This document shows positions 12,672 to 27,471 of a stretch of 64,000 bases of DNA, in pieces (position 1 is the stretch's first letter; each line of letters starts with the position of its first letter). The DNA is from Roseithermus sacchariphilus (GTDB lineage Bacteria; Bacteroidota; Rhodothermia; Rhodothermales; MEBIC09517): contig CP030158.1 of NCBI GenBank assembly GCA_003285105.1, forward strand, positions 124,001 to 188,000, written 5' to 3'. A program made the position numbers and the translations under genes. The notes beneath the pieces are model-generated. The model searched no databases. It was not told the origin of the DNA and saw only the letters and a program-made list of their open reading frames with translations.

Positions 12672-13760
12672 ATGCGAACGCTCTACTTCCTGTCCGTCCT
12701 GCTGGCTGCCGTTCTCCGGGTCCATGACCCGTCGGCAGAACGGGCGAACTGCATACAGGACGTCGTCTGCGTCACGGCCGAGCGCCACGAGCAGGGCGTC
12801 GTCTTCGTGGTGGACAACCGGACGGCCGAGCCCCTGGGGGTCGTGATCGACGCCGCGCTGGAGGGCCTGGCGGCGGACGTGCCGCTGCCTCATACGGCGA
12901 TCTACCCGCCCGGCCGGAGCCGGGCCTTCGCTGCACGGGCCCGCGGAGGCGGCCGGTGGCGCTACGGCTATCGCTTCGCCTACCTGCCCGTCCACGACAC
13001 CGAGCGGACGTGCCACACGCCATCGTTCTGCGTGGTGCGGGAGCAGGCGCTGACCTCCATCCGGTATTACGTGGAGAACCACGGCCCGGCGGTGCTCTCG
13101 GTCCACTTCGAGATGCGGCCGGCCAACGTGCGCATGAGCACGTCCTTTCCCTACGTGGGGGCGTTCCAGCCCGGCCGCACGCTGGCCTTCGAGGGCACCG
13201 TCACCGACCCGCTGAAGCCCTGGGACACGTCGTACCGCACCCGCTGGTCACCGGGCGACGTGTCGCAGGTGCCGGACCTGGCGTACGCCTACGCCCTCCC
13301 GTTCGCCCCCGGCTCCGCCTACACCGTCGTGCAGGGCTATCACGGCCGGTTCAGCCACCAGCACACCTACGCGCTCGACTTCGACCTGCCCCGCGGCACC
13401 CCCGTCCACGCTGCGCGCGACGGCGTCGTGGTGGCCGTCGAGGAACGCTTCGGCGACGGCGCCCCCGAGGAGCGCTTCCGGGACCGGGCCAACTACGTCC
13501 ACATCCAGCACGCCGACGGCACCGTGGCCTATTACGTCCACCTCGAACGCGGAGGCGCGCTCGTCCACGTGGGCGACTGGGTTCGCCGGGGGCAGCGCAT
13601 CGGCCTCTCGGGCAACAGCGGCTATTCGGCCGGTCCGCACCTGCACTTCGAGGTCGTCCGGCTGACGCGGGACGTCCGGCCCGCAGGCCTCCCGGTGCGC
13701 TTCCGGATCGGCCCCCGCACGACCGAGCTGCGCGAAGGGGAGCAATACCGGGCCGACTGA
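12672..13760 (+). CDS. M23 family metallopeptidase (LytM-like)
   Basis: Exported zinc endopeptidase of 362 residues; the family normally cleaves peptidoglycan cross-bridges in the periplasm. A short signal-like N-terminus (MRTLYFLSVLLAAVL) is followed by a cysteine-containing beta-rich region and the M23 domain from about residue 215. Zinc-site candidates are His229/His231 and Asp236 in SHQHTYALDFD, plus His323 and His325 in GPHLHFEV. The fold-typical GTPVHAARDGVV and RRGQRIGLSGNSGYSAGPHLHF segments are intact. The last codons and stop form one copy of the 28-base direct repeat that recurs 13.8 kb downstream. Confidence 0.88.
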   Translation: MRTLYFLSVLLAAVLRVHDPSAERANCIQDVVCVTAERHEQGVVFVVDNRTAEPLGVVIDAALEGLAADVPLPHTAIYPPGRSRAFAARARGGGRWRYGYRFAYLPVHDTERTCHTPSFCVVREQALTSIRYYVENHGPAVLSVHFEMRPANVRMSTSFPYVGAFQPGRTLAFEGTVTDPLKPWDTSYRTRWSPGDVSQVPDLAYAYALPFAPGSAYTVVQGYHGRFSHQHTYALDFDLPRGTPVHAARDGVVVAVEERFGDGAPEERFRDRANYVHIQHADGTVAYYVHLERGGALVHVGDWVRRGQRIGLSGNSGYSAGPHLHFEVVRLTRDVRPAGLPVRFRIGPRTTELREGEQYRAD

Positions 13761-15176: not shown

Positions 15177-18100
15177 TCATTTCAGCAGCATCAGCGGCCG
15201 CGTCTCGGTGTATGATCCAGCTTGCAGTCGGTACAGATAGGGGCCACTCGGCAAGGAGCGGGCGTCGAAGCGAACCGCATAGCGCCCCGGCATGTGATAG
15301 GCATCGACCAGGGTGAGCACCTGGCGCCCCAGCACGTCGTACACCGTCAAAGTCACAGGGCCTGCCTCCGCCACCTCGTATGGAATCGTGGTGACAGGGT
15401 TGAAGGGGTTGGGGTAGTTTTGGTGGAGCGCAAACGTGCCGGGCAGGTCACCATCTCCAGGATCCACAGCAACTCCTGTCGCCGCCTTTAGAAAGGCAGC
15501 AGGGTTGTAATAGTTATCCGCGATAAAACCGCTCCCATTATCCTCAGGGTAAGTTGATGCGGGCCACATGGCAGCTTCATGAGCCAGGCGGAGGGTTCCA
15601 CTGTCTTCGTCAACAGCAACCATGGTCCCTTTGCGTATCTCGAAGTGCAGGTGCGCCGGCATGGTATCAGATTCGGCACATGAGGTCCCAACGGTCTTGC
15701 CCACCGTTCCAATAGGATCGCCTTTCTTCACGGCTCGCCCTATCGGAAGATTCAGCGTGGCCTGCAGATGCCCGTAGAAGGACGTGATGTATTCCTCGGA
15801 CACAGTCTTGTGTGCCAGGATGAGCGTCCGGCCGTACGCACAGCCGTTGAACAACACGATGCCGTCGGCGATGGCATAGACGGTGCTGCCCTCATCGGTG
15901 TCACCCCCCGTCGTCAGATTCCAGTCCTCGCCGGGATGATAGTCCGGGGCGCCATCTCCGTTGAAATCATCATAATGGGAAGTCGGGCTGTCTGAAAGCC
16001 CGTCGTACCATCCCAGATTCAGATAGCGGTTCCGGTTGAACGCAGTCGCGACGTACCATTCATTGGGATCCGCCGTGAAATCGCCATTATCGTTGAAGCG
16101 TATCTTCGGGTAATCGAAGGTGGAGAATGCATCGATGGTGAGCAGTTCCAGGTTGTCGCCCGCAGCACCGCCAATCGGCATCCTGAACGAGGTTGCTACC
16201 GGAACGGCCGCAGCGGTAACTGCTTCGGGGGCGACGACCTCGAAAAGAAGCTCGCCGGACGGGTGTCCATCTGGATTGATTACCTCCACCGACCACATCG
16301 CTGGCGTCGTTGTGAAGACGGGGCTGATGGTGATTCGGGTGCTGCTCTGAGAAACGATGGTTCTTTCCGGAAAGACCTCAGCGGTGCTGTAGTCGCGCAG
16401 GGTTACGGTAGCCCCGGCCGCAAACTCACGCCCATGCAGGGTGAACGGCTGAGGACTGTTCGCACCGATGACCGGATTCGGCTCCACCCGTGTGATCACA
16501 GGAACCGGTTCGGGCGTGCTGTCCACGATCACGTCCTGCGCCGCCATCACGTCGCTCACCCCGTCGGCCGAGGCCGTCGCCAGCCCCTGCAGAATCGTCC
16601 CCTCCGGTGTCCGCGAATACACCTCGAACGAATAGAACACCGTCCGGCTCTGCCCCGGCGGCAGCTCCCCCAGCACCCACGTGGCCGTCTCGCCCCCGTC
16701 ACATCTACCGCCGGGGCAGCCGGCTCCCGTGCCGCTGAAGCTGTAGGAACTCAGGTAGCCCGGCAGCAGGCTGCGCAGCGTCACGTTCGTGCGCGTGGTG
16801 CTGCCCGGGTTGGTCACCGTCAGCGCATAGCTGACCCGCTCACTCGGCCGCACCGGGTCCGGATTCGCCTTCATCGCCAAGGCCAGTTCCTGGTTTTCCA
16901 ACACACTCATCACCTTGGATCGAGCAAGCTGTCCGGAACCAACGCTGTTGCTTAACACGGCATGCATAACGAGGTTACGAACTACCTCAGGTGGAGCCTC
17001 CAGCGTCAGTGTACGATGACCGCTCTCGTTCGGAGCCAGCGTACCCAGGTCCCACGTCACCTCGTCCCCATCGACCACCCCCTCCCCGCTGGCCGCCACC
17101 ACACGCACCCCCGCCGGCACTACCGTGCGCAGCGCCGCCCCCGAGACGCTGCTAGCCCCCGCGTTGGCATAGCTCAGCCGGTACACCAGCCGCTCCCCAG
17201 CCGCCACCGGACTCCGGTCCGCCGCCGCGCTCAACTGCAGCGTCGGCGTGCTCGTCACCACGACATCCTGCGCCGCCGTCACGTCGCTGACCCCATCGGC
17301 CGAGGCCGTCGCCAGCCCCCGCAGAATCGTCCCCTCTGCCGTCCGTGAGTACACCTCGAACGAGTAGAACACCGTCCGGCTCTGCCCCGGCGGCAGCTCC
17401 CCCAGCAGCCACGTGGCCGTCTCGCCCGCGTCACATCTCCCGCCGGGGCAGTCGGCTCCCGTGCCGCTGAAGCTGTAGGAACTCAGGTAGCCCGGCAGCA
17501 GGCTGCGCAGCGTCACGTTCGTGCGCGTGGTGCTGCCCGGATTGGTCACCGTCAGCGCATAGCTGACCCGCTCGCCCGGCCGCACTGGATCCGGGCCCGC
17601 CGTCAGGTCGAGTTGCAACTCAGCGTCTCTGCGGACGACCGTTGCTATCGTACCATGCGCCGTAGTCTGGAGCCCGGCCGCATCCCGCAGTTCGGCACGC
17701 ATGGAAAATATCTGCCCATCCCCTGCCGCGGGGCTCACTTCCACGACAAGCGTTTGCTGCCCCCGTTCGCTCGGCGCCAGCGTACCCAGGTCCCACGTCA
17801 CCTCGTCCCCATCGACCACCCCCTCCCCGCTGGCCGCCACCACACGCACCCCCGCCGGCACTACCGTGCGCAGCGCCGGCCCCGAGACGCTGCTAGCCCC
17901 CGCGTTGGCATAGCTCAGCCGGTACACCAGCCGCTCCCCAGCCGCCACCGGACTCCGGTCCGCCGCCGCGCTCAACTGCAGCGTCGGCGTGCTCGTCACC
18001 ACGACATCCTGCGCCGCCGTCACGTCGCTGACCCCATCGGCCGAGGCCGTCGCCAGCCCCCGCAGAATCGTCCCCTCTGCCGTCCGTGAGTACACCTCGA

Positions 18101-19322
18101 ACGAGTAGAACACCGTCCGGCTCTGCCCCGGCGGCAGCTCCCCCAGCAGCCACGTGGCCGTCTCGCCCGCGTCACATCTCCCGCCGGGGCAGTCGGCTCC
18201 CGTGCCGCTGAAGCTGTAGGAACTCAGGTAGCCCGGCAGCAGGCTGCGCAGCGTCACGTTCGTGCGCGTGGTGCTGCTCGGGTTGGTCACCGTCAGCGTG
18301 TAGTTGGCCCGCTCGCCCGGCCGCACCGGGTCCGGACCCGCCGCCATCGTCAGGCTGAGGGGAGCATCCGACGGCGTCGCATCGTCCGTCGAAAGAGCCC
18401 GGAACTGATCGAATAGCTCGGCCCAGACCACCGGATCGCTGGTAGCACAAGAGTGAGTAATATTAAGTCCATCTTCAAGAAGAGAGCAATTGTCGGGGTC
18501 AACATTTACCTGTACTGCTTCCCGTGCCAATTCACCGGGGTGAACCACGTTGTCCATATTTTGCGTCCATGCGGATACAATCCCATCACCATATTGCTCG
18601 AATCCCCATACCTTCTTTCCCGTGTCAACAATGGATGTATATGAAACTGAAAATGGCAGTGGATATTGTTGCGTATTATTCAATCTGACCATAGCCTCAC
18701 TATCCGCCCTCATCTCGTCCACGGCTATACTTGATGAATTAATGTTTCTGATCTCGCAAAGGCGAAATCGAGCCGTAGCCGAACAAACTGTCGCCCATTC
18801 TGCCCCTAGGTGCGGTGTACTGACCGTGATCAAGTTCACTACATCATCGGCATAGGCTACAGGCATCCCATCCCGAACCGCCAGCTCTTGCAGATAGCTT
18901 CGCGCGGCCAATCCGCCCATGCTGTGCCCGACCAATATGACCTTGCCTTTACCGGTCACCTCAAGCACCCGATCGATTACAGCGGCAACTTGTCCGCCCT
19001 GCTCGCTCAGGGTCAGGTTCTGAGATGGGAATTCGGCCCTCCAGTCCGACATATTCATCGTGTAGAAGTCGGCGTCTGGATCCTCAGTCATGCCGATGAC
19101 TGCTCCATCATCCGGCTCGTACGTGGGCGCTTCCCCCCACGTCCACCCCTGACCCACCAGATAATCCCGCAGGTCACCCCACGCATCATCCGCATTCGAA
19201 GTCAGGCCGTGGATGAAGATGACCGGGTAGTCTGGTTTGGGAAGGTCCTGGCCGAACGCGGCCGGCGTGATGCCCCACGAACCAACTGTGAGGGCAATTA
19301 GAGCAGCTATCGTTCTCATCAT
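15177..19322 (-). CDS. Secreted lipase/DUF11/TIG/M23 protein with T9SS sorting domain
   Basis: 1381-residue modular exported protein. Order: signal peptide (to about residue 24); alpha/beta-hydrolase (oxyanion FIHGLTSN, nucleophile Ser134 in GHSMGG, candidate Asp in YGDGIVS and His in NITHSCA); five DUF11-like modules alternating in type A-B-A-B-A (about 310-940); a TIG/IPT-like module; an M23 peptidase domain with YHPGEDW and MPAHLHFEIR (His near 1220); and a T9SS type A sorting domain over the last 85 residues (NYPNPFNPVTTIPYEV to the terminal MLLK). Both catalytic sites look intact. Start: tandem ATGs at 19322/19319; an in-frame GTG at 19334 is an alternative. Two DUF11 A-B pairs are nearly identical at DNA level. 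Substrate unknown. Confidence 0.88.
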   Translation of the reverse strand: MMRTIAALIALTVGSWGITPAAFGQDLPKPDYPVIFIHGLTSNADDAWGDLRDYLVGQGWTWGEAPTYEPDDGAVIGMTEDPDADFYTMNMSDWRAEFPSQNLTLSEQGGQVAAVIDRVLEVTGKGKVILVGHSMGGLAARSYLQELAVRDGMPVAYADDVVNLITVSTPHLGAEWATVCSATARFRLCEIRNINSSSIAVDEMRADSEAMVRLNNTQQYPLPFSVSYTSIVDTGKKVWGFEQYGDGIVSAWTQNMDNVVHPGELAREAVQVNVDPDNCSLLEDGLNITHSCATSDPVVWAELFDQFRALSTDDATPSDAPLSLTMAAGPDPVRPGERANYTLTVTNPSSTTRTNVTLRSLLPGYLSSYSFSGTGADCPGGRCDAGETATWLLGELPPGQSRTVFYSFEVYSRTAEGTILRGLATASADGVSDVTAAQDVVVTSTPTLQLSAAADRSPVAAGERLVYRLSYANAGASSVSGPALRTVVPAGVRVVAASGEGVVDGDEVTWDLGTLAPSERGQQTLVVEVSPAAGDGQIFSMRAELRDAAGLQTTAHGTIATVVRRDAELQLDLTAGPDPVRPGERVSYALTVTNPGSTTRTNVTLRSLLPGYLSSYSFSGTGADCPGGRCDAGETATWLLGELPPGQSRTVFYSFEVYSRTAEGTILRGLATASADGVSDVTAAQDVVVTSTPTLQLSAAADRSPVAAGERLVYRLSYANAGASSVSGAALRTVVPAGVRVVAASGEGVVDGDEVTWDLGTLAPNESGHRTLTLEAPPEVVRNLVMHAVLSNSVGSGQLARSKVMSVLENQELALAMKANPDPVRPSERVSYALTVTNPGSTTRTNVTLRSLLPGYLSSYSFSGTGAGCPGGRCDGGETATWVLGELPPGQSRTVFYSFEVYSRTPEGTILQGLATASADGVSDVMAAQDVIVDSTPEPVPVITRVEPNPVIGANSPQPFTLHGREFAAGATVTLRDYSTAEVFPERTIVSQSSTRITISPVFTTTPAMWSVEVINPDGHPSGELLFEVVAPEAVTAAAVPVATSFRMPIGGAAGDNLELLTIDAFSTFDYPKIRFNDNGDFTADPNEWYVATAFNRNRYLNLGWYDGLSDSPTSHYDDFNGDGAPDYHPGEDWNLTTGGDTDEGSTVYAIADGIVLFNGCAYGRTLILAHKTVSEEYITSFYGHLQATLNLPIGRAVKKGDPIGTVGKTVGTSCAESDTMPAHLHFEIRKGTMVAVDEDSGTLRLAHEAAMWPASTYPEDNGSGFIADNYYNPAAFLKAATGVAVDPGDGDLPGTFALHQNYPNPFNPVTTIPYEVAEAGPVTLTVYDVLGRQVLTLVDAYHMPGRYAVRFDARSLPSGPYLYRLQAGSYTETRPLMLLK
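17037..18283 (-). repeat. Two near-identical ~500-base DUF11-encoding repeats
   Basis: Bases 17037-17542 and 17778-18283, offset 741, agree almost base for base; by eye only one or two substitutions are seen (near 17139/17880). They encode the same B-then-A DUF11 pair. A third, more diverged A module lies at about 16530-16850. The near identity implies recent duplication or ongoing gene conversion inside the gene. Confidence 0.85.
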
Positions 19323-19346
19323 GAACCTGCGCACAGATGCTTGTTC

Positions 19347-19829
19347 CTACCAAAAAAGGTGGCCGAGCGTCACATCGAATATCTCTGCCAACACAACACC
19401 GACCGCAGCCAGGAGGCCAAATAGAATGAGCAGAGCCGGGATCGACGCAATCGCCCATTTGATCATGAACACGATCATCGAGCCGATCGGCATACTGAAA
19501 TCCGCCACCCGAACCGGTTCGGCCGGCCGCCCCTGGTACCACCGGTAGAACACACTCCGGATACCGGGTACGTCTTCCGCCCGCAGCCACTGCTCATGCT
19601 GGGGTGAGTACACCCAGTCCAGCGGCGTAACTTTGCCGCTCTCCGCTCGTGCTCGCAGCACCTGTAAGGCGATCTCTTCGAGGTGGCCCTCACGTCCATG
19701 AAGGACATAGCTCTCATTGGAGGGGAGCTCAGGGAGATGCTCTTTGAGTGCTGCCTGCCGCTGTTCCTTCTCCGATGTCCCCAGAGCCTGTTTGGCTGGA
19801 GACGATGCCGATGCATACGAAGCACGCAT
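19347..19829 (-). CDS. Small membrane protein with GYF-like segment
   Basis: 160-residue protein of unknown function. A charged N-terminal half contains a short globular segment (VTPLDWVYSPQHEQWLRAEDVPGI) resembling the GYF_2-type domain found before membrane helices in bacterial proteins. A long hydrophobic stretch follows (about residues 115-150, MIVFMIKWAIASIPALLILF onward) that could form one or two helices. It lies 25 bases upstream of the lipase/M23 gene on the same strand and is probably co-transcribed. Its base composition is lower in GC than the flanks of the window. The start is uncertain. Confidence 0.55.
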   Translation of the reverse strand: MRASYASASSPAKQALGTSEKEQRQAALKEHLPELPSNESYVLHGREGHLEEIALQVLRARAESGKVTPLDWVYSPQHEQWLRAEDVPGIRSVFYRWYQGRPAEPVRVADFSMPIGSMIVFMIKWAIASIPALLILFGLLAAVGVVLAEIFDVTLGHLFW

Positions 19830-19885
19830 ACCTGTATCAGATTATCTGCAAAGGAGTGGCATTCACCATCTGATGGCGTCGCCAT

Positions 19886-20647
19886 TCAGGGCGTCAGTTT
19901 GAACAGCAACACCGCCCGCATGAACCAGCCATTGAGACCGAGATCCGGCGGATTTGCCCGGAAGCCTGATGCCGGCAGTTCGCTCCGGCGGCTCATGTCG
20001 GTCCCATCAATCACGTGATAGGACCAGTCGCCCACCGCCGCCATGAGCCTGTAGCCCCCCTCCACGCGCACCTGCACGTCGTCGCCAAACTGCAGCCCGA
20101 CCATTGGCTCGGCCCCGACCCGAAACCCGGACACATCGATCGTAGAACCGGCTTCATAGCGTTCCCCGTCCGGTGCGATCAGGTAAATGTCGCCGCTGGT
20201 CGAGCCGACGTGTCCCAGTTCGCCCCAGAGATATCCCAGCAGCACCTGCAGCCCTGCCGAGACGCTGATGTCACTTTCGAGCACAAAGGCGCCGCCCAGG
20301 CTCCCTTCCAGCATCCGCATGTTCTCGCTGAAGATGACGCCCAGTCCTAACTGCGGCTGAATGGGAGGGTCTATCGGAGCCCTGCTGCTCACCACGAGGC
20401 CCAGCCCAAACGTGCGGCTGCGGTTCTCGCTCGTGTACTGAACCAGACTGGGCAGCGGACTGCGATCCGCTTCCGAGGTTAGCCGGACGCTTGCGCCTTC
20501 GGTGGCGACGAGCCACGGCACGTAGGAAACATATCCACCGACGTGAATCCGTGAACTCGACGCGGTCGCCGTTCCCTGCTGTGCGCGCCCTGTCTCCGGC
20601 GCGAGGATGACGACCATGAGCATGAGAACCCACTGCCTTGTTTTCAT
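19886..20647 (-). CDS. Putative outer-membrane beta-barrel protein
   Basis: 253 residues with a clear signal peptide (MKTRQWVLMLMVVILAPETGRAQ). The mature part has alternating hydrophobic and polar residues (IHVGGYVSYVPWLV, SRTFGLGLVVSS, FRVGAEPMVGLQFGDDVQVRVEGGYRLMA) and ends in FMRAVLLFKLTP, as in small outer-membrane barrels of Bacteroidota. No named family was recognised. It lies 56 bases upstream of the small membrane protein and 122 bases downstream of the TPR/TonB gene, all on the same strand. Confidence 0.6.
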   Translation of the reverse strand: MKTRQWVLMLMVVILAPETGRAQQGTATASSSRIHVGGYVSYVPWLVATEGASVRLTSEADRSPLPSLVQYTSENRSRTFGLGLVVSSRAPIDPPIQPQLGLGVIFSENMRMLEGSLGGAFVLESDISVSAGLQVLLGYLWGELGHVGSTSGDIYLIAPDGERYEAGSTIDVSGFRVGAEPMVGLQFGDDVQVRVEGGYRLMAAVGDWSYHVIDGTDMSRRSELPASGFRANPPDLGLNGWFMRAVLLFKLTP

Positions 20648-20769
20648 ACGTAGAGGTGCTATGCAACGTTGGACACGGAGGCTGGAGTGAGCCCATCGAT
20701 GGGGTAACCCCTCACCATGAGCCTAGTAGAAGCAGAATACCATACCCTCGGCAGGCCATGGCCAAGCCC

Positions 20770-22794
20770 CTACAACCTGAAGGTGATCGGCAGACTCATC
20801 TTCACCGGCACCACCTGGCCTTTGTCTTTACCAGGCTTGAACCGTGCCTGCTTCACCAGCCGAACGGCTTCTTCATCACACCCCGCCCCAATGCCCCTCA
20901 CAACGACTGGGTCAATGGCTCGACCGGTTTCGTCAACCACAAACTGGACGATCACGCGTCCTTCAATGCCGGCTTTCCTGGCGATCTCGGGATAGCGTAG
21001 CTGGCGCTCCAGGGCCTGCAGTCCTCCGATCAGTTCCGGCATCTCCTCAACACGCACGAAAACCTCTGGCTCCTGCGCCTTAGAAGACACCCCGCGCATC
21101 GCGACCGGCTCCACGCGGATGGCACGGTGCGAGTCGGCTGGCCGTGTGCTCGGTGGGTCTTGGACTGCCGAGCCCTCGGGGAGGCGCCGGTCAGTATCCC
21201 GGTCTTTTCCCGATGGCTCGCCCGGGTAGGGGGGGACGGATACCGCTGGCGTCGACTCAGAGAACGCCGGAAGCGATGTAGGGTCAGCGACCTGAGCGGC
21301 GACATCGATCGTGGCCAGGATCTGATTGGTAAACGTACCGGCAATGCGATCTATCAGGGCTTTGGCCAACGCATCGGTTTCCTGCAACTCCGTTCGTGCG
21401 TTCCGTAGCCGAATGACCTCCTGCGGGACGGAGACGTTTCGGGCGTTCAAGTCGTGCTGTGCCTGTACCCTATCGCCCAGGTACTCGATATGGTCGCCGA
21501 TCTCTTCCGCGATGGCATGGTTAACCACTACCTCTCCTGTCTGCACATCGACTACCCGAATGGCACCGGACAGTTTGATCGTCACGCCTGCCTCGTACTT
21601 GTTCGCCGTCGCGGTATGTTCAGAGGTCTCCTTCCGCGTTTTCTTCCGCCCCTCGTCGTCGACATACGGCACCGAGTAGGTGTATTTATAGCGGAAGGTG
21701 ACCGGTGTTCGCTCCAACCGGTCGTGATCCACGTAAACCTGGTTCAGTTTGCCGTAGATGATGTAATCGACGCCTTCAAGATGCGGCTGGGGAGCACTGA
21801 CGTCCGCCAACCAGGACTCACTGATCTGCTGTTCTCGAAGAAGCACTGACAGCTGCTCCCGGTCCATCAATCGCACAAAAGGGCTGGCTTGTTGCAGAGT
21901 CTTCGTTTTGATGTTCTCAAAGATATAGTCCCCCAGATCCATACCCAGTCCCAGATCGCGACCGGTCGTATTCTCCAAGCGCTCAAAAGCCACGTTCAGC
22001 GTTGCGCAGGCTTTCGCTGCCGCCTGTTTTTCCTGCAGAATACTGCTCGTATTTCCTAGTTCACGCGCTTTAACATAGTCATCGTATGCATTCCGACAAT
22101 ATCCTGTCTCAAGGAAATAATCTCCCAGCCCCTCATAAATCGCTGCAGCCTGCTGCAAAGCATCTCGGTACGTTGAGATGTGCTCTAGAGCCTCCTGGTA
22201 GGTGTCAGCAGCCAGGCGATATTGGCCCGATTCAGCTGCAACCTGCGCCATCCTATAATAGGATTCTGCAATTTTCTGCTTTGAGTCCCTGAACGGGTTG
22301 GTTAACTCAAGTGCAGCTTCGTAGGCTTTTATGGCCTGTTGATAGCGTCCATCTGAGAAGAGGCCCTCTGCCCTTGTGTAGTGCTGCTCAGCTGCACCTG
22401 ACCGAACACTTGCTATGGCCTCTTCCACATTGATCGGTACGAACTGGAGTGCATTGTGACGACGAAGACGCTCAAGATAGCGCTGCAACTGCTCGTATTC
22501 TTTGAGTGCCGTCTCCAGATTCCCTTGATCACGGTACCCCTCAGCGAGGCTTAATTTTTCCTTGTAGGCCGGATGTGCTACCACCGCAAGTCTGGAAGCG
22601 GCTTCTGCGTGGCCGGGCTTCTTATTGAGTGCAGCAAGGTAGTACAGCGCCGCTCGATAGAGTTGTCTTGCCTCCTTAGCCTCGTCACCCTGCTTGATCG
22701 TGTTCTGAACACCACTGCACCCCACCGAGGTCGACAACGCAAGAATCGTGACGAATGCAACCCAGCGATTCCGGGCATGAAACCGAGATCTCAT
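20770..22794 (-). CDS. Lipoprotein with TPR, CsgG-like and TonB C-terminal domains
   Basis: 674 residues. A lipoprotein signal peptide ends at Cys26 (LSTSVGC). A TPR-like helical array (about 30-270) includes repeats such as HYTRAEGLFSDGRYQQAIKAYEAALEL. A CsgG/curli-assembly-like domain follows (about 270-530: VAFERLENTTGRDLGLGMDLGDYIFENI, VDYIIYGKLNQV). After a proline-rich linker the last 80 residues form a TonB-type C-terminal domain (RYPEIARKAGIEGRVIVQFVVDETG, then EEAVRLVKQARFKPGKDKG). A TonB domain on a lipid-anchored protein is unusual, since TonB is normally held by an inner-membrane helix. Role unknown; envelope assembly or signalling is a guess. Confidence 0.78.
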   Translation of the reverse strand: MRSRFHARNRWVAFVTILALSTSVGCSGVQNTIKQGDEAKEARQLYRAALYYLAALNKKPGHAEAASRLAVVAHPAYKEKLSLAEGYRDQGNLETALKEYEQLQRYLERLRRHNALQFVPINVEEAIASVRSGAAEQHYTRAEGLFSDGRYQQAIKAYEAALELTNPFRDSKQKIAESYYRMAQVAAESGQYRLAADTYQEALEHISTYRDALQQAAAIYEGLGDYFLETGYCRNAYDDYVKARELGNTSSILQEKQAAAKACATLNVAFERLENTTGRDLGLGMDLGDYIFENIKTKTLQQASPFVRLMDREQLSVLLREQQISESWLADVSAPQPHLEGVDYIIYGKLNQVYVDHDRLERTPVTFRYKYTYSVPYVDDEGRKKTRKETSEHTATANKYEAGVTIKLSGAIRVVDVQTGEVVVNHAIAEEIGDHIEYLGDRVQAQHDLNARNVSVPQEVIRLRNARTELQETDALAKALIDRIAGTFTNQILATIDVAAQVADPTSLPAFSESTPAVSVPPYPGEPSGKDRDTDRRLPEGSAVQDPPSTRPADSHRAIRVEPVAMRGVSSKAQEPEVFVRVEEMPELIGGLQALERQLRYPEIARKAGIEGRVIVQFVVDETGRAIDPVVVRGIGAGCDEEAVRLVKQARFKPGKDKGQVVPVKMSLPITFRL

Positions 22795-23280
22795 AGCATA
22801 CCTCTGGGACTGGAAATGAGTGGAGCACGCAACGAAGCATTGCGCCCTGTATCCCTACCCCGCACATTCTACTACGTCCTTACCACATCTCCGGCGTCAA
22901 ACTAATCCAGGACCATGCTTCTGATTTCTTTGATACCAACCACGCAACCGAGATGTGCAGCATCCATCCCGGCCAATTCGTTCATGCATCATCTATCCTG
23001 GATTCACACGCCTTCTGTCCCGTGTGAAGACACACTGGACGCACTCAAATGGGGTCTATAGTCCACCTGCTTCGATGGTGCCCATTCCTTGCTCACCTGA
23101 CCTCCAAAGCCACTGATCATGGCTTCAATTGAAGGCCCGTCATTGCTTCCGCTACACAGGCTGCCGCCGTGCCCTATAAATGCGTTAGCCAAACGCGAAA
23201 TTGAATCTGGCATTCAGTACCCGTAAAGGGCAGCAGTACCGCAGCTCTTCCCCTGATCCATCAACGACCCCAGCAATGTA
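22795..23280. other. 486-base region without a supported gene
   Basis: Lies between the 3' end of the hybrid sensor gene and the start of the TPR/TonB lipoprotein gene. GC content is visibly lower than in the flanks. A 69-codon frame on the minus strand (23004-23213) has no recognisable motif and is not called. The region presumably carries the promoter of the lipoprotein gene, but no confident -35/-10 pair was identified. Confidence 0.5.
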
Positions 23281-26200
23281 CTATTCGTCCCGGCTCCACG
23301 CGTCAGATTCCCGGTATGCGGAGGGCGAAACGCCGAATTCTTTCCGAAACTGCTTCGAGAAGTAATCCACATCCCGGAATCCAACGGCCCGCGCCACCTC
23401 AGCCACGGCGCCAGCACCGGTCTTCTTGCGTAGCAGTTGAGCGGCCCGCTGCAGGCGCATCTTCCGCACGAGAACCCCGGGGGACATGCCGGCGATGCGG
23501 TTCAGTTTGCGCGTCAGCTGGCTGCGGCTCAGGCCCATCTCATCCGCGAAGAAATCCACGGTGAAGTTGGCGTCGCCTATGTGCGCCTCCACCACCGCCT
23601 GCGCCTCATTCAAAAACACTGCGTCGTCCGCATCGATCTCGATGTCGTTCGGCTGCACCACCACCGTGTGGCTGTACTGCTCGCGCCATGCCTGACGGCT
23701 CTGGACCATCCTGCGGAGTCGTGCCTTCAGTTCGCCCATGTCAAAGGGCTTGCGCATGTAATCCTCTGCACCGGCAGCCAGGCCCTCGGCCGCATCGGCC
23801 GCACCGACGCGCGCGGTCAACAAGAGAACGGGAATGAGCCGAAGGGCATCGTCCTGTTTCAAGGTACGGACCAGATCCAGCCCATCTGCTTCCGGCATCA
23901 TCACGTCGCTCACGATCGCGGAAGGCCGTACCTGACGCGCCAGATCCAGCGCCTCGCGGCCGTCTTGTGCCTCTACGACGGTCCACTCGGCCTGGAGATG
24001 CCGCCGCAGATACGCCCGCATGTCCGGATTGTCCTCCACGAGCAGCACGACCGGCCGCGCACCATCGGACTGCACTGCGCCGTCGCCCTCCGGCTCCACA
24101 CCCTCATCAGCCGTCTCTGCCCGCGCCGCGCTTTCCTGCCGGCCGTACACCGGCGGAACGTGATCCTTCCTCCCAGACGGGGAGGGCTCCTTCCCGTTGT
24201 TGCTCCCGCCCGGTTGCCAGCGTGGTATCTGCACCGTGAACGTACTGCCAAACCCAACGGTGCTCTCTACCCGCACCTCACCCCCATGCAACCCGACGAG
24301 GTCTTTCACCAGTGACAGCCCGATGCCGAGGCCTTCGTGAGGAAGCCGGGACGGGTCCTCCACCTGATGAAATCGATCGAAGATGTGGGGCAGTTCATGG
24401 TCTGGGATGCCTTTTCCGGTATCTCGCACCCGAAGAACCACCTGCCCGGCATCCCCTTCAAGCTCTACCTGCACCTTCCCACCGGCCGGCGTAAACTTGA
24501 TCGCATTCGTGAGCAGGTTGACGAGAATCTTTTCCAGCTTGTCTGGATCGGCATGCGCAGGCAAGGGCGAAGAGGTGACATGAAACGATAGATGCACTCC
24601 CCGCCGCTCCGCCAGCGGAACGCATCCCTCTACGACTTCCCCTACGAACCCGGCCAGATCGACCCTGCTGGCCGACAGCAGCAGCCGTCCTGATTCGAGA
24701 CGCGCCAGATCGAGCAATTGATCGACCAGGTGCTCGAGACGACGGGTGTTACGGCAAACGACTTCGAGTTGAGATCTCGCTTCTTCGGACAACGTCCCCG
24801 CTCGCTCTGCCAGTAGATCGTCGACGAGGGCGTAAATCAGGGTTATCGGTGTACGGAACTCATGCGACAGGTTCGTGAAGAAGCGGCTTTTGAACCGGTC
24901 GATCTCCTGTAACCGCTGTGCCTGCTCCGCCAGCTGGCGGGACTGGGCCACAGTCCGTTCCTGCTCCTTTCGCAGCGCCCTGGCCGTCTCACGCGCTTCC
25001 CGCCACTTCTTCCGGTAGGAAACCATGAATGCAAAGATCCCCCCGGCCAGCAACGCCCCCAGGACCCGCAGCCACCACAACTCGTACCAGGAGGCCGAAA
25101 CTCGGAACCGGTAGCTCGCCCCGGCTTCATTCCAGATACCGTCGTTGTTGGCTGCGACGACGCGAAACGTGTACGTGCCCGGGGGCAGGTTGGTGTAGGT
25201 GGCGAAGCGCCGTCTATCCGCCTCTATCCAGTCGCGGTCGTATCCCTCCAGCCGGTATCGATATCGGTTCTTCTCGGAGGCCACATAGCTGAGAGCCGCA
25301 TAGTGTATTTCCACCATTCGGGCATCAGGGGCGATGCTGGCCGTTCCATCCAGGGCAAGCGCCTCTCCATCCGCCATCACCCGTTTGATGCGAACCGGCG
25401 GAGGTCGCTCGTTGAGGCTGAATGTCGACGGGTCGATGATGGCAGGCCCTTTGATCGTGGGAAACCACAACGTCCCATCCTGCATCTTCCATCCGCCGGG
25501 ACTGCCCGAGCTGCACTCTGCGCTCGGCATGCCGTCCGTCTCGGTCAGCACGAGCGCATCCAGACGCGCGCGGGTTCCGGCGGCGATCCCGTCAAGATCG
25601 GAACGAGCCATGCGATAGATGCCCTGATCCGAACTCATCCAGACGAAGCCCAGATCATCCTCCAGGATACGCCAGATGCCTTCGCCGGGCAGGCCATGGT
25701 CGCGGGTATACACGAAAAAACGCTCCTCCTCAAACCGATGTAGCCCTCCTCCATAGGTGCCAAAGAAGAGGACCCCTCTCGCATCCTCATACACCGACAC
25801 GAAGTGCTCACTCATCAGGCCATCGTCCAGGGTGTAGCGCCGCCAGGCCCCCTGCCGGCGTCGATAGAGTCCCCGGCGCGTCCCTATCCACAGATCCCCA
25901 TTCGACGCCTCATGGGCGAAGCGTGCTTCGACCACGTCTGAAAACCGTGCCTCCCTCACCAGCTCCCCTTCCTCCATCCTCCACACGCCCCGTCCGACCA
26001 CCCACAGGGTCCCGTCCCGGTCTTCCTCCAGGTCATAGGGCACCCACTCGGATCCCAGCGAAAGAGACTCCACGACCCCGTTCTGCAGGCGACTCAACCC
26101 GCTCAGCGTTCCTACCCAGAGCCCTCCCGCCCGATCGACATACAGGGAGCGGACATCGTTGCTGACAAGGCCGTGCTCGGTCGTCCAGTGCTGCCAGACT

Positions 26201-27438
26201 CCGTCCCGACGCTCGTACAGGCCGTCCCCCCATGTCCCGGCCCAGACGGTACCGTCATCGTGCTGATACAGCGGGAAAAGAATAGCCCCTCCCGGGCCTT
26301 TGTCAAGCGTCCGAACCCGGCGCGGCCTCAGACTGGCAAGGCCCACATCCGTAGCGATCCACAGGGTGCCCTCGGCATCCTGGATCACGTCCACGATGAC
26401 GTCGTTGCCGATGCGTTCGGACAGGGCCACGCTTTGCACGGTATCTCCACGGATTCTCGCCAGCCCGGACCCGTTCCTGCTGGCTGCCACCCATAGGCCC
26501 CCCTGCGTATCCTCCAGAGCAGGCCAGACACGCGCCCACGGCAGGCGCTCACCCGGCCGGTAGTGGGTCCACTCCCCGTGCTGCCACCGCAGCAACCCAT
26601 CATCCACCGTCCCGACCCAGAACGCGCCCTGCCGGTCGACCAGGAGGCGGTTCAGAGGGCTCGAGGATCCTGTATCGAACGGGGTCAGACGCCCCTGATA
26701 CAACCGCAACAACCTGTCACAACTGACCCACAGCGCCCCATCCGGTCCTTCATACACTCCGGGACGCGCATGCACTCCGTGATTCGCGCAGCGGGGGACC
26801 GGTTGGATCGCCTCTGCTCGGAAGGCCCCGTCCGTCCACCGGGCCAGCCCCCTGCTGGTCAACACCCAGAGCGTTCCCTGCCGATCGCGATGCACCACCC
26901 GGATGGTATCGGCGGGCAGTCCGTCCTCCCTCGTATAGCGACGGCCCTGTAACCCCTGAAAACGCAGCAGTCCCGTCTCCGTACCGATCCAGAGGACGGC
27001 GTCCGCATCTTCATACCAGGATTCCACCCGCCCGGGATCGTGGCCCCGCTCGTCGGTCACGGGTTCGAAGACGCCGTCCGCGTAGCGCGCCATCTCACCG
27101 TTATCCGTAGTCAACCAGAGGCGGCCGGATCGGTCTTCGTAGATCGCCGAAGCAAAGCTGGTCGTCCATCCCGGGATGTCCTCGCGCCTGAAAACGTCAA
27201 AAACATGCCCGTCGAAGCGGACCACCCCGCCTCCGGTTGCCAGCCACAGGTACCCGTCCTGGCTCTGATGGACATCCATGATGTGGTTGACCGGCAGCCC
27301 CTCGGCCGTCGTCCACAACCGGACGAGGTAGGCATCTTCCAGCATGCCCCCCGGACCCTCTTGCGCCCGGACGAGCCGTGCCCCGCTCCCTGACCCCGCT
27401 ACCAGCAACAGGGATATGAGAACGAGACACGTGCGCAT
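23281..27438 (-). CDS. Hybrid two-component system sensor/AraC regulator (HTCS)
   Basis: One-protein signalling system of the Bacteroidota type, 1385 residues. Order: signal peptide; periplasmic two-component propeller repeats (about 30-700; many G-x-LWVGT / LWIAT units); Y_Y_Y domain (YRYRLEGYDRDWIEADRRRFATYTNLPPG begins it); one transmembrane helix near 790; HisKA with the phosphorylated His in NLSHEFRTPITL; HATPase_c (DTGKGIPDHELPHIFDRF, GLGIGLSLVKDLV); receiver domain with Asp in IVSDVMMP; C-terminal AraC-type HTH (GLSRSQLTRKLNRIAGMSPG, VGFRDVDYFSKQFRKEFGVSPSAYR). The start is set at the signal peptide (27438). Such proteins usually control neighbouring polysaccharide-use genes, but no susC/susD pair is in the window. 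Confidence 0.93.
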   Translation of the reverse strand: MRTCLVLISLLLVAGSGSGARLVRAQEGPGGMLEDAYLVRLWTTAEGLPVNHIMDVHQSQDGYLWLATGGGVVRFDGHVFDVFRREDIPGWTTSFASAIYEDRSGRLWLTTDNGEMARYADGVFEPVTDERGHDPGRVESWYEDADAVLWIGTETGLLRFQGLQGRRYTREDGLPADTIRVVHRDRQGTLWVLTSRGLARWTDGAFRAEAIQPVPRCANHGVHARPGVYEGPDGALWVSCDRLLRLYQGRLTPFDTGSSSPLNRLLVDRQGAFWVGTVDDGLLRWQHGEWTHYRPGERLPWARVWPALEDTQGGLWVAASRNGSGLARIRGDTVQSVALSERIGNDVIVDVIQDAEGTLWIATDVGLASLRPRRVRTLDKGPGGAILFPLYQHDDGTVWAGTWGDGLYERRDGVWQHWTTEHGLVSNDVRSLYVDRAGGLWVGTLSGLSRLQNGVVESLSLGSEWVPYDLEEDRDGTLWVVGRGVWRMEEGELVREARFSDVVEARFAHEASNGDLWIGTRRGLYRRRQGAWRRYTLDDGLMSEHFVSVYEDARGVLFFGTYGGGLHRFEEERFFVYTRDHGLPGEGIWRILEDDLGFVWMSSDQGIYRMARSDLDGIAAGTRARLDALVLTETDGMPSAECSSGSPGGWKMQDGTLWFPTIKGPAIIDPSTFSLNERPPPVRIKRVMADGEALALDGTASIAPDARMVEIHYAALSYVASEKNRYRYRLEGYDRDWIEADRRRFATYTNLPPGTYTFRVVAANNDGIWNEAGASYRFRVSASWYELWWLRVLGALLAGGIFAFMVSYRKKWREARETARALRKEQERTVAQSRQLAEQAQRLQEIDRFKSRFFTNLSHEFRTPITLIYALVDDLLAERAGTLSEEARSQLEVVCRNTRRLEHLVDQLLDLARLESGRLLLSASRVDLAGFVGEVVEGCVPLAERRGVHLSFHVTSSPLPAHADPDKLEKILVNLLTNAIKFTPAGGKVQVELEGDAGQVVLRVRDTGKGIPDHELPHIFDRFHQVEDPSRLPHEGLGIGLSLVKDLVGLHGGEVRVESTVGFGSTFTVQIPRWQPGGSNNGKEPSPSGRKDHVPPVYGRQESAARAETADEGVEPEGDGAVQSDGARPVVLLVEDNPDMRAYLRRHLQAEWTVVEAQDGREALDLARQVRPSAIVSDVMMPEADGLDLVRTLKQDDALRLIPVLLLTARVGAADAAEGLAAGAEDYMRKPFDMGELKARLRRMVQSRQAWREQYSHTVVVQPNDIEIDADDAVFLNEAQAVVEAHIGDANFTVDFFADEMGLSRSQLTRKLNRIAGMSPGVLVRKMRLQRAAQLLRKKTGAGAVAEVARAVGFRDVDYFSKQFRKEFGVSPSAYRESDAWSRDE

Positions 27439-27471
27439 GGTTGCTTTCCCACGTCGATACCACCACCTCAA

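Follow-up and report, generated by a model that had tools for sequence, protein, structure and literature searches.

A lipase-type hydrolase and an M23 peptidase joined by a DUF11 array in a predicted T9SS cargo protein of Roseithermus sacchariphilus

A single gene of Roseithermus sacchariphilus encodes a protein that begins with a putative signal peptide, continues with a lipase-type alpha/beta hydrolase, an array of five DUF11 modules and an Ig/TIG-like linker, and ends with an M23 peptidase followed by a type A T9SS tail. The gene occupies positions 15177..19334 of the window, by which we mean the whole 64,000-nucleotide stretch analyzed here; all positions given below are those of the window and all features lie on the minus strand. 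The explanation that we favor, and to which we would give about an even chance, is that this fusion protein is a modular T9SS-exported exo-hydrolase that digests bacterial-envelope material outside the cell, mainly for nutrient release. The mechanism of every part is conventional, and exported proteins with more than one enzyme have been described before. The pairing of lipase and M23 was seen in no other genome sampled, but it looks like a further outcome of the domain exchange that is frequent in exported proteins of this type.

Reading frame and catalytic domains

The gene is a single frame that is open throughout and encodes 1385 amino acids when started at the GTG at 19334. Alternative ATG starts are present at 19322 and 19319, and the former, four codons 3′ of the GTG and in frame with it, had been taken as the start in a sequence-only reading of this DNA; the frame is intact with either choice. 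Apart from the signal peptide and the TIG call, every module was assigned from a profile match above a curated cut-off. The domain search that the sequence-only reading had proposed was carried out with Pfam and NCBIfam, and it recovered the hydrolase, the DUF11 array, the M23 peptidase and the T9SS tail on one polypeptide, in agreement with the chimera described there.

The N-terminal domain (residues 30–318; 18381..19247) is predicted, from its Pfam matches, invariant columns and modeled fold, to be a serine hydrolase of the lipase type, with all three triad residues in place. Residues about 32–235 match PGAP1, DUF676, Lipase_2 and Abhydrolase_1 above the curated Pfam cut-offs, and a profile built from nine relatives matched PDB lipases of Burkholderia, Pseudomonas and Bacillus with E-values down to 1e-18. 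Across 35 aligned hydrolases drawn from several phyla, the columns of the nucleophile S138 (in GHSMGG; 18921-18923), the acid D250 (in GDGIVS; 18585-18587) and H294 (in THSCATSDP; 18453-18455) were all invariant. The predicted structure (mean pLDDT 82, pTM 0.87) gave Z scores of 20–23 over about 220 residues against BlEst2 and against lipases of Streptomyces, Pseudomonas and Burkholderia, and the intact serine-hydrolase triad suspected from the letters is thus borne out by both conservation and fold. The fold cannot reveal the specificity of the lipase.

The M23 peptidase with its N-terminal extension (residues 1040–1275; 15510..16217) was assigned from Pfam, motifs, conservation and the predicted fold of the core. 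The Peptidase_M23 match (1.3e-15, above the curated cut-off) covers residues 1142–1233 counted from the ATG. The zinc ligands HxxxD and HxH and both catalytic histidines are present as H1133 (15936-15938), D1137 (15924-15926), H1189 (15768-15770), H1228 (15651-15653) and H1230 (15645-15647). Among the 30 aligned sequences, the last four of these residues are invariant and H1133 is conserved in at least 90%; the alignment drew on a profile search of viral contigs. A separate search of viral contigs with the extended M23 region found nothing closely related to it. While the N-terminal extension was modeled poorly, the core model reached a pLDDT of about 90 and gave Z scores of 13–15 against EnvC, ShyA, LytM and lysostaphin, compared with 10–11 against LasA (3it5), pseudoalterin (6ik4) and beta-lytic protease. 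In predicted fold, the core is therefore closer to the former group than to the latter. The zinc site, which had also been described as intact, is supported by the five residues and by the LytM-like fold. Thus, neither catalytic site has been lost, each being complete at the level of residues and predicted fold, and since the ORF is free of damage as well, the fusion protein seems to be maintained.

Repeat array, composition and related proteins

The DUF11 array (about residues 321–925) is composed of five stretches that match PF01345 above the curated cut-off (1.7e-57), the same number as counted in the sequence-only reading. They are arranged as A1 (18018..18359), B1 (17724..17981), A2 (17277..17618), B2 (16995..17240) and A3 (16566..16886). 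A2-B2 repeats A1-B1 with a period of 741 nt and 97.8% DNA identity over 580 nt; B2 and B1 are 98.8% identical over 257 nt, A3 shows 91–92% DNA identity to A1 and A2, and the codon differences between the A-B copies comprise seven synonymous and eight non-synonymous changes. Judged from these identities, the A-B-A-B-A array is the product of recent internal duplication or has recently been homogenized. The following linker (16241..16559) had been called a TIG module, which the profile searches did not confirm. The linker does look TIG-like by eye, but residues about 926–1031, when searched alone, gave no TIG/IPT match in Pfam at E-values up to 10, and the NCBIfam "choice-of-anchor Z repeat" that covers it is sub-threshold (28.7 vs 30 bits).

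The base composition of the gene is mosaic. The G + C content is 53% in the lipase segment (56% at third positions), 68–72% in the DUF11 array (79–91%) and 58% in the M23 segment (66%), so that the lipase and the array are about 17 points apart. Positions 18401-18800, within the lipase, are the lowest-GC 400 bases of the 64-kb window (0.47 against a mean of 0.673 with an s.d. of 0.053), and the array forms a high-GC block within a lower-GC zone that extends from about 15.2 to 23.4 kb. Such a mosaic would fit assembly from parts of different origin, composition alone being no proof of it.

We searched for the same architecture with the lipase domain in 60 relatives and 394 genomes of the phylum, with the M23 region in 114 genomes of the order, 394 of the phylum and 245 of the class, and with the whole protein in plasmids; the lipase search of genome contigs gave at least 56 loci. 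The samples are partial. Drafts in which genes break off where a contig stops are common among the relatives, and full reading covered the longer candidate ORFs. No second ORF with both a lipase and an M23 domain was present among those examined from the relatives, the order, class and phylum genomes, the lipase matches listed and the plasmids. No description of the lipase-DUF11-M23-T9SS order was found in the openly accessible literature searched, and both results agree with the earlier remark that no described protein with this order was known. Long M23 ORFs in relatives (about 1020–1120 aa; L076, L082 and L083) proved to be a different fusion, APH-M23-aminotransferase III.

Parts of the architecture do recur. 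Like the fusion protein, L072 and L075 from the same order and L138 and L139 from elsewhere start with a PGAP1/Abhydrolase-type lipase and finish with a T9SS tail, but they lack the DUF11 array and the M23 domain. L085 (genome G020, same order) is a Cohesin-CARDB-M23-T9SS tail protein that shares with the fusion protein an M23 domain with an N-terminal extension (32% identity over 148 residues), a beta-sandwich scaffold and the tail; it differs in that Cohesin and CARDB replace DUF11, the lipase is absent and the residues of the first zinc motif have another spacing. L282 also combines M23 with a T9SS tail. Nearest in layout is a protein of G088, from another family of the same order (L280:3-5168), in which a DUF11 A-B-A array, 37–40% identical to that of the fusion protein, is followed by M23, fn3, a protease with the motif HELGHVFGLQH (HExxHxxGxxH) and a T9SS tail. 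In contrast to the fusion protein, the fn3 and protease modules stand after M23, and no lipase was seen in this protein, whose N-terminus is lost at the contig end; a search for the missing front found the repeat on no other contig of that draft and only one weak lipase-like match. The M23 domain of the G088 protein may be inactive because HLD stands where HxH is expected. Furthermore, in L313 and L314 (genomes G050 and G073) a signal peptide leads directly into a DUF11 A-B array, with no lipase between the two, and both ORFs run into contig ends.

In the M23 tree, the domain of the fusion protein had no supported sister group, and that of G088 was nearest by path length, on long branches. Because this placement is unsupported, we do not claim shared ancestry of the DUF11-M23 pairing, which may be one old pairing or two events. 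These architectures are most simply read as a DUF11 scaffold that gains and loses hydrolases and that, in this genome, has a lipase at its front.

Export, neighboring genes and possible function

The N-terminus appears by eye to be a typical signal peptide (residues 1–29; 19248..19334), with RRFMMR followed by a hydrophobic stretch and probable cleavage near AFG-QD. The C-terminal sorting domain (residues 1302–1385; 15180..15431) exceeded the cut-offs of both TIGR04183, the NCBIfam T9SS type A tail (30.2 bits vs 23), and PF18962, Por_Secre_tail (27.6 vs 27 bits; 3.7e-6). The host genome, a single contig of 4.81 Mb, also encodes the translocon SprA (TIGR04189, 1995 bits vs a cut-off of 200), and the T9SS signal noted earlier is substantiated by the tail and SprA together. 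As the genome encodes 104 T9SS tails, the tail on the fusion protein is nothing special. We infer from these features that the fusion protein is exported by the T9SS. Because the T9SS carries cargo past the outer membrane, the M23 domain would hardly be able to reach the cell's own wall. Since such export would place both enzymes outside the cell, an external substrate is the likeliest, and bacterial-envelope material is the most natural one.

Two small genes lie upstream on the same strand, as judged from ORFs and spacing. A 160-aa predicted membrane protein (19347..19829) is encoded 12 nt upstream of the fusion gene and, after a further gap of 56 nt, a 253-aa protein with a signal peptide, by eye probably an outer-membrane barrel (19886..20647). 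Both genes possibly share a transcript with the fusion gene, and an immunity or partner role is possible for them. Neither product matched a family in Pfam, NCBIfam or PADLOC, and no immunity partner was recognized at the locus with these three resources. A role in anti-phage defense was dropped; it had been raised by a single weak PADLOC match to the hydrolase part.

Under the explanation that we favor, the protein would be exported by Sec, pass through the T9SS and then either stay on the cell surface or be released. As a stalk, the DUF11 array would keep the two enzymes apart. The lipase would cut lipid esters in envelope material outside the cell and the M23 domain would cut peptidoglycan peptides in the same kind of material, such as dead or dying neighbors and biofilm debris. 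A LytM-like M23 core together with a lipase, as modeled, fits digestion of the bacterial envelope. In this scheme, module shuffling would have set the lipase ahead of a DUF11 scaffold, relatives carrying other hydrolases on like scaffolds. Several points count against this explanation: no wall-binding domain was recognized, the fold does not reveal what the lipase acts on, extracellular M23 domains can also cleave proteins, certain M23 domains are inactive, and the joining of the two enzymes may carry no functional meaning.

The strongest competitor, which we consider unlikely but still deserving about half the weight of the favored explanation, is that the protein is a chance product of such shuffling, in which digestive enzymes unrelated to each other came to use a single export tail and act on separate substrates with no joint envelope target. 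The occurrence of the lipase and M23 pair in only one of the genomes sampled, the joining of the same modules to other hydrolases in relatives and the difference in G + C content between the lipase and the array all speak for it, whereas the apparent maintenance of the protein, with both sites and the ORF undamaged, speaks against it.

A weapon against live neighboring bacteria, surface-displayed or released, whose lipase opens the outer membrane and whose M23 domain cuts peptidoglycan, is improbable. It would account for an intact lipase and a LytM-like M23 domain on one exported protein, and T6SS WHIX effectors offer a precedent with two envelope-directed domains, M23 included (PMC12135965). 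However, that precedent uses another secretion route, the lipase and M23 pair has no phylogenetic spread in the genomes sampled, and neither an immunity partner nor a domain for delivery or wall binding was recognized. Feeding on debris needs fewer assumptions than a weapon because neither a wall-binding domain nor an immunity partner was recognized. Slightly less probable again is the strong form of this idea, that a single T9SS-displayed protein strips outer-membrane lipid and cuts peptidoglycan and thereby breaches the whole Gram-negative envelope in predation or competition. The sequence-only reading had suggested attack on another cell's envelope. The architecture, the intact sites and the envelope as the most natural external substrate are in line with that suggestion, but a joint attack exceeds the evidence, because relatives put DUF11, CARDB, cohesin, fn3 and the T9SS tail on different hydrolases, because the lipase and the array differ strongly in G + C content, and because no immunity partner or wall-binding domain was recognized; scavenging explains the observations equally well. 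Its other suggestion, processing of a lipidated peptide, found no support.

Some M23 domains outside cells cut proteins, and pseudoalterin and LasA, both secreted M23 proteases, are among the fold matches. Both score lower than the LytM/EnvC/lysostaphin group, and an enzyme that degrades proteins and lipids outside the cell, its M23 domain cutting proteins such as elastin or collagen instead of peptidoglycan, is also a poor candidate.

Should both domains work extracellularly, the fusion protein would be a natural two-enzyme protein for bacterial-envelope digestion, and it would suggest that scaffolds of DUF11, CARDB or cohesin serve in this order for the exchange of catalytic modules from which T9SS cargo is built. 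Work on lytic enzymes, on T9SS cargo and on scavenging by bacteria could then profit from it.

Comparison with known systems

Family I bacterial lipases in the PDB resemble the hydrolase domain of the fusion protein in predicted fold and active-site residues, and LytM/lysostaphin-type M23 endopeptidases resemble its M23 domain in the same two respects. Unlike the fusion protein, both kinds of enzyme stand alone or have other partners, and they have no T9SS tail. A lysostaphin-type bacteriolysin combines M23 with a cell-wall-binding domain such as SH3b; the fusion protein has the M23 domain, and Pfam and NCBIfam scans recognized no cell-wall-binding domain (e.g., SH3b) in it. T6SS WHIX effectors carry two toxic domains on one exported protein and need an own immunity protein for each of them (PMC12135965). 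They differ from the fusion protein in this requirement, in their secretion route and in the absence of a lipase partner from the accessible part of that source, and they resemble it in having two envelope-directed domains per exported protein, one of which is M23 in some effectors.

Genes and base composition around the lipase-DUF11-M23 gene

A separate second M23 protein, similar to the MepM/ShyA endopeptidases, is encoded at 12672-13760 (plus strand), 1.4 kb downstream of the lipase-DUF11-M23 gene (15177-19334, minus strand) and on the opposite strand. Upstream of the latter, a single protein (20770-22794, minus strand) combines TPR repeats with a stretch weakly resembling CsgG and with a TonB C-terminal domain. 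The product of 23281-27471 (minus strand) is a two-component regulator of the hybrid type, a single polypeptide that includes a propeller sensor, a kinase, a receiver and an AraC-type output; such regulators are ordinary in Bacteroidota.

The GC content was mostly 0.51-0.63 at 15200-23400, compared with 0.67 window-wide. This lower-GC zone spans the lipase-DUF11-M23 gene and the three genes upstream of it, and within the zone the DUF11 array forms a high-GC block. The zone is possibly acquired DNA, although the 64-kb window contains no tRNA gene.

M23 fusion proteins in relatives

In G088, a draft genome from the same order, the protein encoded at L280:3-5168 (contig C92) has the order DUF11-M23-fn3-HELGHVFGLQH protease-T9SS tail, and its M23 domain carries HLD where HxH is expected. 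A XerC/D-like recombinase gene adjoins this locus, and the contig break falls within a perfect repeat of the DUF11 array.

Several relatives (loci L076, L082 and L083) encode fusions of APH phosphotransferase, M23 and aminotransferase III (1020-1120 aa), which are probably of the PRK06148 type; PRK06148 itself matched the M23 domain of the lipase-DUF11-M23 protein weakly.
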